Assembly: GCF_024710765.1 (NCBI RefSeq)
Contig: NZ_JANJUE010000227.1
Location: 1 to 37,432, forward strand
Length of the DNA stretch: 37,432 bases
DNA from: Pseudoxanthomonas sp.
GTDB taxonomy: Bacteria; Pseudomonadota; Gammaproteobacteria; Xanthomonadales; Xanthomonadaceae
Reading direction: 5' to 3'
This document shows positions 5,020 to 31,223 of the stretch, piece after piece (positions within the stretch are counted from its first letter, which is position 1; the number at the start of each line of letters is the position of its first letter). The translations under genes and the position numbers were made by a program. Under the pieces are notes generated by a model. That model was not told the DNA's origin. It searched no databases and saw only the letters and a list, made by a program, of their open reading frames with translations.

Positions 5020-5346
5020 TCACCGAACTGTTTTTTCCTGCCAGGGCTCGCCCTTCTCGTCGCGATGCCACTGGCGCCATCCGTGGCAATAAGCCGATTG
5101 GATGTAAGGGCCACGGAGAATCCTGGCGTCCTCCCGGGAAGCCAGATCCTCGCCCATCAGATAGATCGCATGTGACCACGGCTGGACCTGCTCATGGGTG
5201 AGCATGGCCAGCCGTGCGTCCACGAGATCAGCGGCTTCCTCGACAGTACCCGCACGCACGAGAAAACAGGTGTCGGGGCCATTGGGCCCACCCGTCACCG
5301 GGTCCGCGCAATCATTCCCCCAGCGGATGACTTCGAAAATTTGCAT
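5020..5346 (-). CDS. small protein of unknown function
   Basis: 108 residues, starting MQIFEVIRWGNDCADPVTGG. It has no signal peptide or membrane segment. The composition is typical of a folded cytosolic protein, rich in aromatic residues, with a TCFLVRAGTVEEAADLVDARL segment resembling a strand-helix unit and a conserved-looking tryptophan-rich end (GWRQWHRDEKGEPW). I do not recognise a named family. Such short ORFs of this type occur as hypothetical proteins in Xanthomonads, but that is recollection and not checked. It is transcribed towards the propeller gene; the 152 bases between them show no terminator. The 157 bases between it and the tRNA gene hold nothing recognisable. Confidence 0.72.
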   Translation of the reverse strand: MQIFEVIRWGNDCADPVTGGPNGPDTCFLVRAGTVEEAADLVDARLAMLTHEQVQPWSHAIYLMGEDLASREDARILRGPYIQSAYCHGWRQWHRDEKGEPWQEKTVR

Positions 5347-5503
5347 ACCACCTGGCGTGGAAGTTCATTCTGCAAGGACGATAACCCAGTTCGTCCCGGG
5401 CTTCCCGGGGAAGACAGGGGTGCCGGAACGCCGGACATGGTGAGCGAGCCGGCACGACGCATATCGGCAACGCTTCTGGCAGGGAATCCCTGGCAGCTTC
5501 AAA

Positions 5504-5579
5504 TGGTGGGCCGTGAAGGATTCGAACCTTCGACCAAAAGATTAAAAGTCTTCTGCTCTACCGACTGAGCTAACGGCCC
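5504..5579 (-). tRNA. tRNA-Lys (anticodon UUU)
   Basis: The complete 76-nt cloverleaf reads on the minus strand with acceptor GGGCCGT pairing to ACGGCCC, discriminator A and an encoded CCA. The D arm is GCTC-AGTCGGTA-GAGC. The anticodon loop CTTTTAA has TTT at 5544-5546. The T arm is GAAGG-TTCGAAT-CCTTC. It closely matches the E. coli tRNA-Lys pattern. It lies 66 bases downstream of queC on the same strand. Lysine tRNA is not a queuosine substrate, so the neighbourhood with queC/queE is not functionally explained. Confidence 0.98.
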
Positions 5580-5645
5580 ATGCACCCGGCATTGCGCCGG
5601 GGTGCGAATTCTAACCCAGCTTGGGGGCAGCTGAAAAATCCGGGT

Positions 5646-6311
5646 TCAAGCGTAACGGGTCGGGTCCGCCACGCCGGCGTCGGCGAAGCCCTGTGCACGC
5701 AGGCGGCAGGCGTCGCAGTGGCCGCAGGCACGGCCCTGTTCGTCGGCCTGGTAGCAGGACACGGTCTCGGCGAAATCCACGCCCAGGCGGATGCCTTCGC
5801 GAACGATGGCGTCCTTCCCCATCGACATCAGCGGGGCATGGATCCGCAGGCCCGCGCCTTCCACCCCGGCCTTGGTAGCCAGGTTGGCGAGCTTCTCGAA
5901 CGCGTCGATGAATTCCGGCCGGCAATCCGGATAACCGGAGTAGTCGACGGCATTGACCCCGCAGAAGATGTCGGCCGCGCCCAGTACCTCGGCCCACCCC
6001 AGCGCCACCGACAGCATGATGGTGTTGCGGGCCGGCACGTAGGTGACCGGAATGCCACCGCCGCCGGCTTCGGGTACGTCGATGTCATCGGTCAGGGCGG
6101 AGCCACCGATGCTGCGCAGGTCCACGTGTACGGTCTTGTGGGCGACCACGCCCAGCGATCGGGCGACACGGTCGGCCGCTTCCAGTTCCGAGGTATGGCG
6201 CTGGCCGTAGCGCACGCTCAATGCATGCACCACGTATCCCTGTTCACGGGCGATGGCGACGACGACGGCGGAATCCATGCCACCGGAGAGAAGGACGACG
6301 GCTTTTTTCAT
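5646..6311 (-). CDS. queC: 7-cyano-7-deazaguanine (preQ0) synthase QueC
   Basis: Converts 7-carboxy-7-deazaguanine to preQ0 using ammonia and two ATP, in the queuosine pathway. 221 residues, the normal length. It begins [16 protein letters not shown] with the PP-loop ATP-binding motif SGGMDS, followed by [11 protein letters not shown]. It ends with the zinc-binding cysteine cluster C-x-(8-10)-C-GH-C-DA-C (residues in [20 protein letters not shown]). The ATG at 6311 is fixed by family homology. Unusually, the start codon is directly preceded by a tract of nine GATTCCC heptads (mRNA sense) with no Shine-Dalgarno. The frame also stays open upstream to an ATG at 6425, which would add 38 residues made of heptapeptide repeats; I consider that spurious. 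It is probably cotranscribed with queE. Confidence 0.96.
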
Positions 6312-6312
6312 G

Positions 6313-6380
6313 GGGAATCGGGAATCGGGAATCGGGAATCGGGAATCGGGAATCGGGAATCGGGAATCGGGAATCGGGAA
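6313..6380. repeat. tandem heptad repeat, nine GGGAATC units
   Basis: Nine perfect, uninterrupted copies of GGGAATC (6313-6375) plus a partial copy GGGAA (6376-6380). In queC mRNA sense the unit is GATTCCC and the last unit ends one base from the AUG. Perfect tandem heptads are prone to slipped-strand copy-number change. Related heptads form the arms of the elements at 16540-16630 and 17164-17289. Confidence 0.97.
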
Positions 6381-6391
6381 ACAGCTTCCGG

Positions 6392-6412
6392 CTTTCGCGC
6401 CCTTCGCGAAAG
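6392..6412. other. hairpin between queE and queC
   Basis: CTTTCGCG-CCCTT-CGCGAAAG gives an 8-bp stem with a five-base loop, in the 154-base gap between queE and the queC start, next to the heptad tract. There is no adjacent T run on the minus strand, so it is more likely a structural element of the mRNA or of the repeat than an intrinsic terminator. Confidence 0.5.
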
Positions 6413-6465
6413 GACCGCGAGGCATTCATGCGTGGACGTGACCGCGGCGAGGCGTCCGCCTGCCG

Positions 6466-7140
6466 CTACCGCCCCGGCTCGTCATTCCAGAGCAGCTTGT
6501 GCAGTTGCATCTGGAAACGCACTGGCAACCGGTCCTCGACGATCCAGTCGGCCAACTGGCGCGGTTCGAGTTCGGATTTGGATGGCGAGAACAGCACGTC
6601 GCAACGCCCGGCCAGGCCGTGCTCGGCCACCATTCCGCGCGCCCACTCGTAGTCCGCGCGGCCGCAGATGACGAACTTCACCTGATCCCGCGGGGTCAGC
6701 AGCGGCAGATTCTCCAGCCGGTTGCGCGCCATCTCGCGGGATCCCGGTGTCTTCAGGTCGACCACCCGCGAGACACGCGGGTCCACTTCGGCGATATCCA
6801 GCGCGCCCGAGGTCTCCAGCGAAACGTCGTAGCCGGCGTCGCACAGGCGCCGCAGCAGGATCAGGCAGCGCTTCTGCGACAGCGGTTCACCGCCGGTCAC
6901 GCAGACATGGCGGACGCCGTGGCGGGCGACCTCGGCCAGGATGGCGTCGATATCCCACCACTCGCCGCCATAGAACGCGTATTCGGTGTCGCAGTACTGG
7001 CAGCGCAGCGGACAGCCGGTCAGGCGCACGAACACCGTGGGCCAGCCGGCCGCATTGGCTTCGCCCTGCAGGGACAGGAAGATCTCCGTCAGCTTCAGGC
7101 GTTCCTGGGCGACGGGCTCGGACGTGGGGACAGCGTTCAT
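6466..7140 (-). CDS. queE: 7-carboxy-7-deazaguanine synthase QueE (radical SAM)
   Basis: Radical SAM enzyme converting 6-carboxy-tetrahydropterin to 7-carboxy-7-deazaguanine, the step before QueC. 224 residues. The N-terminus ends in FLSLQGEANAAGWPTVFVRL. The 4Fe-4S motif CxxxCxxC is CPLRCQYC, followed by DTEYAF. The SAM-binding segment GGEP is in VTGGEPLSQ. ETSGALDI and DLKTPGS are the family's substrate and Mg2+ regions. The C-terminus (RFQMQLHKLLW) is the usual conserved ending. The start ATG at 7140 is standard. It lies upstream of queC, separated by the hairpin and heptads. QueD and QueF are not in the window. Confidence 0.96.
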   Translation of the reverse strand: MNAVPTSEPVAQERLKLTEIFLSLQGEANAAGWPTVFVRLTGCPLRCQYCDTEYAFYGGEWWDIDAILAEVARHGVRHVCVTGGEPLSQKRCLILLRRLCDAGYDVSLETSGALDIAEVDPRVSRVVDLKTPGSREMARNRLENLPLLTPRDQVKFVICGRADYEWARGMVAEHGLAGRCDVLFSPSKSELEPRQLADWIVEDRLPVRFQMQLHKLLWNDEPGR

Positions 7141-7204
7141 GGCGGCACATTATCGCCTGCCGACGTGATGGCCGTCGGGCGATTCCGGGAGGGGTTCAGC
7201 GAAA

Positions 7205-7235
7205 GGGCGGGCTTGGCGGCGGGCACCGCCCGCCC
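7205..7235 (-). terminator. candidate hairpin between cpoB and queE
   Basis: GGGCGGGC pairs perfectly with GCCCGCCC across a 15-base loop, in the 134-base gap after cpoB. On the minus strand the 3' arm is followed by TTTCGC, only a short T run. It may attenuate read-through from the tol-pal operon into queE/queC. Confidence 0.4.
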
Positions 7236-7274
7236 GGGCCGTGGCCGGACCGCCGGGGCCGTGCCCCGGATGGT

Positions 7275-8090
7275 TCAGCGCAGCCGGCCGAGTTGGATGG
7301 CTTTCAGGCGGTCATCGGCCGTGCGGGCCACATCGCTGCCCGGATAGCGGTTGACCACGTCGGCCAGGGTCCGTTCGGCCGCGTCGACCTTGCCGAGGCC
7401 GTACTCGCACAGGCCCAGCTTGAGCAGCGAGCCGGGCGCCTTGTCGTGGGTCGGATAGCGGTCCATCAGCGCGCGGAACTGCTCCGCGGCCAGGGCGTAG
7501 TTCTGGGTGACGTAGTAGCTTTCTCCCAGCCAGTACAGCGCATTCGGCGCATACACACCGCTGGGGTAGGCCTGCAGGAAGGCGGTGAACAACTGCGCCG
7601 AACCGACGTAGTCGCCGGACTTCAGCTTGTCGAATGCCTGGTTGTAGGCGGTGCGCTCGTCCCCCGCCTGCGCCAGGGAGCCCGGGTCGCCATGCACGGA
7701 CGGCGCCGGTTCGACGACTTTCGTCGCCGCCGACGGCGGCGTTGCCGGAAGCGCCGGGGTGCCAGCCGGTGCGGTGACCGGTGGGATGCCGCCGCCTTCC
7801 ATGCGGTTCAGCCGGCCGTCCAGATCCAGGTACTGGTCACGGTTGCGCTGCTGCTGTTCCTGCAGATCGTGCTGGAGCTTTTCCAGCTGCGCGCGCAGTT
7901 CGCGGATTTCGCCTTCCTGCTGGCTCAGCCGGTTCAGCAGGTCCATGTTGGCCTGCGAATTGTTGGCTTTGGCCTCCAGGGCGCTGACGCGGTCCGCCAG
8001 GCTCTGGCGCTGCGCCCAGGCTGGAGCGGCGGCCACCAGGGCCGCCGCCGTGACCAGCAGGAAACGCTTGCCGATCGACATCGCGCTCAT
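7275..8090 (-). CDS. cpoB: cell division coordinator CpoB (YbgF), periplasmic TPR protein
   Basis: Periplasmic protein that couples Tol-Pal outer-membrane constriction to septal peptidoglycan synthesis through TolA and PBP1B. 271 residues. It has a signal peptide (KRFLLVTAAALVAAAPAWAQ). A coiled-coil trimerisation segment follows (LADRVSALEAKANNSQANM through about residue 100, Gln/Glu/Leu-rich heptads). Then comes a Pro/Ala linker, and at the C-terminus three TPR units (YNQAFDKLKSGDYVGSA, ALYWLGESYYVTQNYALAAE and LLKLGLCEYGLGKVDAAE). It starts 3 bases after the pal stop, so translation is likely coupled. A second ATG three codons in is an alternative start. It ends the tol-pal operon. Confidence 0.95.
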   Translation of the reverse strand: MSAMSIGKRFLLVTAAALVAAAPAWAQRQSLADRVSALEAKANNSQANMDLLNRLSQQEGEIRELRAQLEKLQHDLQEQQQRNRDQYLDLDGRLNRMEGGGIPPVTAPAGTPALPATPPSAATKVVEPAPSVHGDPGSLAQAGDERTAYNQAFDKLKSGDYVGSAQLFTAFLQAYPSGVYAPNALYWLGESYYVTQNYALAAEQFRALMDRYPTHDKAPGSLLKLGLCEYGLGKVDAAERTLADVVNRYPGSDVARTADDRLKAIQLGRLR

Positions 8091-16539: not shown

Positions 16540-16630
16540 GGGATTGGGGATTCGGGATTGGGGATTGGCGACATGCGGACTTCCGCCGCGTCGCGCCGTT
16601 GCGAATCCCCAATCCCCAATCCCGAATCCC
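16540..16630. repeat. heptad-repeat inverted element in the ruvC-ruvA spacer
   Basis: Two 33-bp arms (16540-16572 and 16598-16630) are imperfect reverse complements with about four mismatches. Each arm is built of heptads of the form GGGATTG or GGGATTC. The 25-base core between them holds its own short dyad (GCGGA-CT-TCCGC). The full element could form a long stem. It fills the whole gap between the ruvC stop and the ruvA ribosome site. Confidence 0.92.
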
Positions 16631-16635
16631 GGACA

Positions 16636-17157
16636 TCATTTGCGACTCCACGCCTGGCGGGCGTTGACGCCCAGGCGGTTGGCGGTGGCGCGCACGTGCG
16701 CATGGGTGATGGCCACGGCCAGCGCGTCGGCGGCGTCGGCCTGCAGCTTGCCGTGCAGGCCGAGCATGATCCCGACCATGTGCTGGATCTGGTGCTTTTC
16801 CGCGCTGCCCTTGCCGACCACGGCCAGCTTCACTTCCTTGGCGGCGTATTCGTGCACCGGCAGATCACGCAGCACCACCGCGCAGATCGCCGCACCGCGC
16901 GCCTGGCCCAGCTTGAGCGCCGAATCGGGGTTGCGGGCCATGAAGACCTTCTCGATGGCGACCTCGTCCGGCCGCCAGGTCTCTATGATTTCGGCCAGGC
17001 CGGTCAGCAGGCACTTGAGCCGCTGCGGAAAATCCTCGGCGCCCAGCAGCACCAACGGCGCATGGTGCACATGCGTCGTCCGCCCGGCGCCGTCCACGTC
17101 GATGATGCCGACGCCGGTGCGCTGCGAACCCGGATCGATGCCGAGGATGCGGGTCAT
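16636..17157 (-). CDS. ruvC: crossover junction endodeoxyribonuclease RuvC
   Basis: Dimeric Holliday-junction resolvase, 173 residues. The RNase-H-like fold begins [16 protein letters not shown] with the first catalytic Asp in GIDPG. The second acidic residue is in VAIEKVF. The C-terminal acidic pair is in [14 protein letters not shown]. The junction-binding loop region around [30 protein letters not shown] is normal. The ATG at 17157 has no good Shine-Dalgarno. It is preceded at six bases by the second heptad-repeat element, a parallel to queC. It lies between yebC and ruvA as in many proteobacteria. Confidence 0.96.
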
Positions 17158-17163
17158 TCTGGG

Positions 17164-17289
17164 CGGGAATCGAGAATGGAGAATGGGGAATCGAAAGAGC
17201 GAAAGCGGATTCCTACAACGGAATCTTGCTCGGCCGGGGTCGGGAAGAGGACTGGCTGACGATTCTCCATTCCCGATTCCCGATTCCCG
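17164..17289. repeat. heptad-repeat inverted element in the yebC-ruvC spacer
   Basis: 30-bp arms at 17164-17193 and 17260-17289 match as imperfect reverse complements (about five mismatches). Each arm is made of GGGAATC/GAGAATG-type heptads. The core of about 66 bases has no obvious coding content. The element runs from 6 bases after the yebC stop region to 6 bases before the ruvC ATG. Confidence 0.9.
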
Positions 17290-17295
17290 ACGCGG

Positions 17296-30866: not shown

Positions 30867-30951
30867 TCCCGGGCGTTGTCGCGGGCTTGCCTCCTGATGG
30901 CCGTTTGAACCGTCTCGGACTGTTGAACGTGCTTGCCCAAGGTGCGGAAAG

Positions 30952-31080
30952 GCAAATCCCCCTCGGTCCCCCTTTTTCAAAGGGGGAGGAAGAAGCAGGT
31001 CTCTGGATCACGAAAGGCACCGAACGCTCGTAGCCCCCTTTGCAAAAGGGGGCGGGCGCCGAAGGCGACGGGGGATTTGC
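30952..31080. mobile_element. MITE-like element, copy 1
   Basis: 129 bases, bounded by perfect 11-base inverted termini GCAAATCCCCC and GGGGGATTTGC. Inside each end lies a further palindrome (CCCCC-TTTTTCAAA-GGGGG at the left, CCCCC-TTTGCAAAA-GGGGG at the right). The centre is variable. There is no coding capacity and no transposase. It sits in the gap after the TonB receptor. Confidence 0.88.
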
Positions 31081-31095
31081 GCTTGGTGCTGAAAA

Positions 31096-31223
31096 GCAAA
31101 TCCCCCTCGGTCCCCCTTTTTCAAAGGGGGAGGAAAAAGCGGGCCCCTGGATCAGGAGGGGCATCGACGCTGGTAGCCCCCTTTGCAAAAGGGGGCGGGC
31201 GCCGAAGGCGACGGGGGATTTGC
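31096..31223. mobile_element. MITE-like element, copy 2
   Basis: 128 bases with the same termini and internal palindromes as copy 1, and a centre that agrees over roughly three quarters of its positions. It follows copy 1 after a 15-base spacer (GCTTGGTGCTGAAAA), in the same orientation. The remaining 142 bases to the next gene hold no recognisable promoter. Confidence 0.88.

Follow-up and report, generated by a model that had tools for sequence, protein, structure and literature searches.

The GATTCCC heptad array before queC of Pseudoxanthomonas sp. is probably an unstable untranslated leader rather than an on/off switch

Judged by its sequence, the perfect heptad array directly before queC in Pseudoxanthomonas sp. 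is a member of the published GGGAATC repeat class of xanthomonads, lying in the place which this class favours. An unstable untranslated leader seems to fit it better than an on/off switch. On balance, the array is probably a 5'UTR that has grown between a promoter and the queC AUG, drifts in length by slippage, and has at most graded effects on expression. The evidence comes from the locus itself, from the queC leaders of related species, and from arrays at other gene starts and stops throughout the family.

The array before queC and its counterparts in relatives

The window, meaning the whole analysed stretch of 37,432 nucleotides, carries the heptad array in the gap between queE and queC (Table 1). 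The initial annotation had described perfect GGGAATC heptads reaching to one base from the queC ATG, and both the sequence and TRF confirm this. The run has an uninterrupted period of 7 over 9.71 units, namely (GGGAATC)9 at 6313-6375 followed by GGGAA (TRF score 136, 100% matches). On the minus strand, a single C (position 6312) stands between the last unit and the ATG. A chance origin was rejected, considering the perfect run and a reversed-pattern control with 0 matches in the same genome. An Rfam scan of 5300-7300 gave only a tRNA at its gathering score, besides two plastid families with weak matches below theirs. queC is followed directly, on its own strand, by a tRNA-Lys (TTT) at 5504-5579, and by eye this tRNA is also found behind several other queC loci of the genus.

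Table 1. Features of the window, numbered from its first nucleotide
Feature	Position	Strand	Remarks
queC, 7-cyano-7-deazaguanine synthase	5646..6311	-	ATG 6311-6309; NCBIfam TIGR00364, 202 bits, cut-off 150
Heptad array (GGGAATC)9GGGAA (+ strand reading)	6313..6380	-	TTCCC(GATTCCC)9 in queC mRNA sense; putative queC 5'UTR
Conserved block just upstream of the array	6381..6399	-	15/18 gap-free aligned columns invariant in three species
Candidate -10 hexamer GAAGCT	6383..6388	-	GATGCT in two sister species; 2 nt upstream of the array; predicted +1 near 6376, array 5' end
Alternative in-frame ATG	6423..6425	-	No in-frame ATG counterpart in two sister species
queE, upstream of queC, same strand	6466..7140	-	TIGR04349, 366 bits, cut-off 300
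Heptad tract, leader of the MIGRLRG... frame (ATG 16523)	16540..16568	-	GGAGG between tract and ATG
Inverted partner tract, directly behind the ruvC stop codon	16604..16630	+	
Degenerate heptads, ruvC leader (ruvC ATG at 17157)	17167..17191	-	Same family as the queC array
Inverted partner tract, at the other end of the gap that precedes ruvC	17260..17290	+	

GGGAATC and GGGNATC heptad repeats that form quadruplexes are known from Xanthomonas (Rehm et al. 2015, PMC4692102). Arrays of this class have at least two tandem units, at least one of them GGGAATC, and the queC array has 9.7 perfect ones. Its G-rich strand is the template strand of the gene, and its 10 GGG tracts exceed the four intact tracts that make an array quadruplex-capable by sequence. 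As is typical of the class, arrays are dispersed through the genome and vary in unit number: there are eight with at least two exact GGGAATC units, of which the queC array is the longest and the other seven have 2-3 units. Looser rules gave 186 patterns in Xcc, against these eight exact arrays, and four units was the most common size, fewer than at queC (PMC4692102). A word search of the main text of that study had 0 matches for queC, and none of the papers searched joined phase variation, queC and a tandem repeat. In our genus sample, 12 of the 38 genomes hold GGGAATC arrays of at least four units.

The window itself contains further, degenerate tracts of this kind, two of them in gene leaders and each with an inverted partner. 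One leader belongs to ruvC and the other to the frame starting MIGRLRG, which we take to be ruvA. Elsewhere in the window, 30941-31223 holds a 144-bp direct repeat in two copies (91% matches), rich in CCCCCTTT...AAAGGGGG stretches.

The genus sample consisted of one genome per species, and a complete or almost complete queC was obtained from 37 of the 38. GATTCCC arrays stand before queC in three of the 37 leaders, with 9 units in the window, 7 in a second species (G016) and 110, in a scaffolded sequence, in P. beigongshangi REN9 (G001); the other 34 have none. Besides the window itself, G016 and G001 are the best queC matches, at 97% and 95% identity. A different heptad, GAATCAC, was found by eye at the position of the array in five other leaders of the genus. 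Among the best 80 of 395 queC relatives, taken from named genomes, a perfect run of period 7 exceeds 2.4 units in four leaders, where it reaches 4.6 to over 18, and no other period from 4 to 10 rises above 2.8 units. In a member of another genus (G063), TACGCT is followed by 10 GATTCCC units and then, without a gap, by a GTG start of queC; a two-unit inverted partner lies behind what looks like the queE stop. From these sequences, the queE-queC gap seems to have gained heptads more than once. One relative, titled Bacillus subtilis (L029, JAHREJ010000020.1), has a Stenotrophomonas-like queC leader and a queC 84% identical to that of the window, and is a mislabelled or mixed assembly.

The REN9 sequence needs care. 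At positions 1730-2503 of L009 (a record identical with G001:C8), an array of 110 exact GATTCCC units continues into queC, whose start codon reads ATT instead of ATG (CATG to GATT). The canonical start may have been lost here, or the sequence may be an assembly product. In the trpF leader of this strain (L150), 98 units precede an intact ATG. The REN9 contig is designated a scaffold, and two other REN strains from the same laboratory were assembled with SOAPdenovo. We do not take 110 and 98 units as real array lengths, since both may be assembly products. The tract had been described in the initial annotation as prone to slippage. Its perfection stands, and so do length differences between close species (9, 7 and the scaffolded 110) of the kind which slippage predicts; slippage itself is what we infer from them.

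Arrays at gene boundaries and the TAnGCT motif

The queC array is not an isolated case. In 30 of 297 family genomes, C-sense arrays of at least three units end 0-6 nt before an ATG, at 58 places in all. From these, 57 were taken (one near a contig end was left out), which gave 56 distinct frames. Coding-like frames of at least 100 aa make up 47 of the 56, although one or more of them (L196) seem to be spurious. Among 19 of these genes, chosen rather than randomly drawn, 16 reached an NCBIfam cut-off: trpF, ung, trmD, mnmG, dtd, tsaB, gmk, lysS, recR, fmt, ruvC, rimK, xth, a tatD type, thiL and folB. Two more, kdpD and a truC/rluA type, matched below the cut-off, and one had no match. In this non-random choice of 18 family-matched genes together with queC, many of the products act on tRNA, namely those of queC, trmD, mnmG, tsaB, dtd, fmt, lysS and the truC/rluA-type synthase gene.

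Contingency loci are usually linked to surface or adaptive genes, even if this is not strictly defining. The arrays described here stand before housekeeping genes. The proposal of a switch specific to queC is not supported: the array belongs to a genome- and family-wide class, one member of which abuts queC as others abut trpF, ung, trmD, mnmG, tsaB, dtd, lysS, recR and further genes. Rehm et al. (2015, PMC4692102) likewise argue against phase variation for this class.

Orientation at gene starts is biased. G-sense arrays before an ATG are nominally more frequent, with 87 places in 39 genomes against the 58 C-sense places, but this count is confounded because GGGAATG differs from the unit by one base, and coding frames were compared instead. 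Of 15 sampled G-sense cases, 14 have frames of at most 80 aa and one has an open 339-aa frame beginning in the repeats. For 63 nt of repeat, the predicted fold is -4.9 kcal/mol in the C-sense and -18.4 kcal/mol, with quadruplexes, in the G-sense. The C-rich orientation of the RNA thus seems to be tolerated before start codons because G-rich RNA would form quadruplexes, while a C-rich leader would fold only weakly. Arrays are also found at gene ends: of 15 further regions (L262-L276) whose arrays have at least four units, 10 have the C-sense 3' end of the array at a distance of 0-17 nt from a convergent gene's stop codon.

A -10-like hexamer, TAnGCT, is followed after 3-9 nt by two or more C-sense units at 108 places in 43 of the 297 family genomes, and reads into the G-rich orientation at one place in one genome. 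This association with C-sense arrays is a new observation of the present analysis; no -10 motif bordering the arrays is mentioned in the available part of Rehm et al. (2015, PMC4692102). The hexamer ends 2-11 nt upstream of 19 of the 45 start-linked arrays, with 0/45 in each of four windows further upstream. It precedes 4 of 30 stop-linked arrays (Fisher p = 0.01), a comparison that is no independent test, as the idea and the first count came from the same start-linked loci. The start-linked set was obtained from the 56 frames by removing 9 that were short or not coding-like and 2 without flank, 8 duplicates having been removed earlier. The stop-linked set comprises 30 arrays of the TCA type among the matches listed, minus 9 that were not coding-like and 1 without flank, plus 10 stop-codon arrays. 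Both counts depend on where the array is taken to begin: they hold for the stricter boundary, and a looser one that swallows the hexamer gives 15/47 and 2/31. Related patterns gave 21/45 against 6/30 for TAnnnT (p = 0.027), 30/45 against 13/30 for NAnGCT (p = 0.058, which does not separate starts from stops), and 28/45 against 7/30 for [TG]AnGCT (p = 0.0011, a class chosen after the GAAGCT of the window had been seen). All these counts run across related, non-independent genomes, and their significance is overstated.

Of 30 loci, 17 have a spacer of 6 nt between the hexamer and the first full unit, and another five have one of 5 nt. With spacers mostly of 5-6 nt, the usual transcription start (+1) would fall at about the first repeat.

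A doubtful alternative is that the arrays are selfish or passive. Hexamer and array would then be one spreading unit that settles with its tail at the edges of genes, at start or stop codons; the hexamer would be its head and not a promoter, and the array would have no role for queC. Such an element would account for the hexamer before some stop-codon arrays, and for 14 of 30 loci taken from the 108 TAnGCT places, at which no recognisable gene begins downstream of the array (no frame in 8, a frame judged antisense by eye in 6); TAnGCT may indeed be partly a fixed head of a repeat element. Arrays can also occur as inverted pairs within an intergenic gap, both here and in Rehm et al. (2015, PMC4692102). 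However, start-linked arrays have the motif more often than stop-linked ones do, and it is present in leaders of the genus that have no array at all.

Array-less leaders of two genes bear this out. For trpF (L282-L311), 29 of 30 loci returned from the 38 genomes could be parsed, and five of them bear GATTCCC arrays. Among the remaining 24, nine contain TAnGCT, compared with a mean of 1.0 and a maximum of 6 in 1000 shuffles of single bases within 20-nt blocks. Nine of 33 array-less queC leaders, a number that includes the five GAATCAC leaders, contain it as well (same shuffle, mean 1.6, maximum 6). Since TAnGCT occurs in these leaders without any array, we favour it as a promoter element. In trpF, it lies 29-46 nt upstream of the ATG in eight leaders and 7 nt upstream in one. 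Another 6-nt motif, TACCCT, occurs in 10 of the 24 array-less trpF leaders, always at a distance of exactly 6 nt from the expected ATG, and in nine of them just behind a TGA that may end the upstream gene. Such a layout has been linked to leaderless genes (PMC3160421), and from it the trpF mRNA of these ten is probably leaderless. In one trpF leader (L304, from G036), about five units, by eye, of a pyrimidine-rich heptad, CCGCCTT, lie between TACGCT and the ATG.

Initiation at queC and the effect of unit number

The hexamer of the window, GAAGCT, does not fit TAnGCT, and a sigma-70 consensus scan found no promoter at queC. The conserved block in which it lies, taken together with the partial repeat unit, is nevertheless invariant in 20 of 23 gap-free aligned columns across three species; elsewhere in the leader, 22 of 62 such columns are invariant.

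That queC has no Shine-Dalgarno sequence, as stated in the initial annotation, holds: the best anti-Shine-Dalgarno duplex energy at positions -22 to -4 is 0 kcal/mol. The part of the claim that made the array responsible does not. In the genus, 35 queC leaders have an ATG; the energy is no better than -3.3 kcal/mol in 34 of them, the sole exception being G008 with -5.9 kcal/mol, and 21 have no duplex at all. As 33 of the same 35 carry no GATTCCC array, the missing Shine-Dalgarno is not caused by the array, and loss through its insertion was rejected.

We picture an array that is transcribed but not translated. RNA polymerase would start at a putative promoter in the queE-queC gap, suggested by the conserved block and the -10-like hexamer, and the transcript would begin at about the first repeat. 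GAUUCCC units would then run to one base before the queC AUG, where ribosomes would initiate without a Shine-Dalgarno, as they presumably do at most array-less queC leaders. Units would be gained and lost by slippage, as the lengths in different species suggest. A change in copy number would alter the length of the leader, with at most a graded effect on queC, and no reading frame would depend on it.

A stronger version, in which unit number acts as a rheostat for queC and its variation is selected, appears improbable. Its model is hmw1A of Haemophilus influenzae, where more 7-bp repeats lower expression via the upstream promoter P2 (PMC8262952). The two loci are alike in having tandem heptads of changing number between a promoter (a putative one at queC) and the gene start, and by analogy with hmw1A such an arrangement can give graded control. 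The array lengths at queC, 7, 9 and the long array, differ between species, which would also fit. Yet hmw1A, unlike queC, encodes a surface adhesin, its graded expression is known from experiment and its unit number differs among isolates (PMC8262952). In addition, arrays stand before many housekeeping genes, those named sharing no theme of surface variation, and no regulatory role of the heptads could be identified by Rehm et al. (2015, PMC4692102).

Translation from an upstream start through the array, broken whenever the unit number changes, would make queC an on/off contingency locus, which we regard as very unlikely. The initial annotation had proposed this for ATG 6425, and the ATG is indeed in frame with queC (a 259-aa ORF, 114 nt upstream), and 7 is not a multiple of 3. 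A frame switch from this ATG is nonetheless unlikely on sequence grounds: the codon has no in-frame ATG counterpart in the two array-bearing sister species, G016 and G001, it lies upstream of the putative transcription start, and queC relatives align from the downstream Met. Upstream of the array, G016 offers an in-frame TTG at 84 nt, and G001 offers GTG, GTG and TTG at 834-876 nt. With its queC ATG reading ATT, G001 possibly starts queC upstream of the array, if its sequence is right, but as said this may be an assembly product. G063, too, has an open frame of 426 nt upstream of queC, with an ATG 345 nt away.

Heptads near start codons are also known from Beggiatoaceae, where the commonest distance from the end of a set of TAACTGA direct repeats to the start codon is 1 nt, and a Shine-Dalgarno is present in about 10% of the intergenic regions concerned (MacGregor 2015, PMC4679880). 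They resemble the GATTCCC arrays in lying few nt from start codons, in the rarity of Shine-Dalgarno sequences, and in the mixed, partly essential functions of the genes. TAACTGA differs in having stop codons in all frames and one G per heptad, hence no G-tracts, and no promoter linkage is described for it in the available part of that study (PMC4679880). That the queC array is a binding site for a translational regulator or for S1 or cold-shock proteins, as proposed for the TAACTGA sets, whose position is equivalent, is the least probable of the readings, since the queC unit is GATTCCC and not TAACTGA, 34 of the 37 queC leaders of the genus do without the array, and candidate proteins are named for TAACTGA, in the part of the literature available, and none for GATTCCC.

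A possible class of repeat leaders

More tentatively than for queC itself, and as a possibility short of a probable one, we suggest that the GATTCCC arrays of Xanthomonadaceae form a distinct class of mRNA leaders on many conserved genes, several of them for tRNA modification or DNA repair. Such a leader would combine a TAnGCT promoter, an array that extends from +1, and an AUG without Shine-Dalgarno. The class may have arisen repeatedly, by heptads inserted and grown between the transcription start and the AUG of leaderless or short-leadered genes. It would place a quadruplex-capable template at the transcription start, with a length that drifts and may tune expression.

If the arrays span the distance from transcription start to AUG, the orientation bias would be explained simply, C-rich RNA being tolerated there and G-rich RNA not. 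If true, housekeeping genes would here offer a natural example of translation that starts without a Shine-Dalgarno on leaders built of repeats and varying in length. The role of the heptads and their biased placement, which was left open by Rehm et al. (2015, PMC4692102), would become testable should this layout be true.
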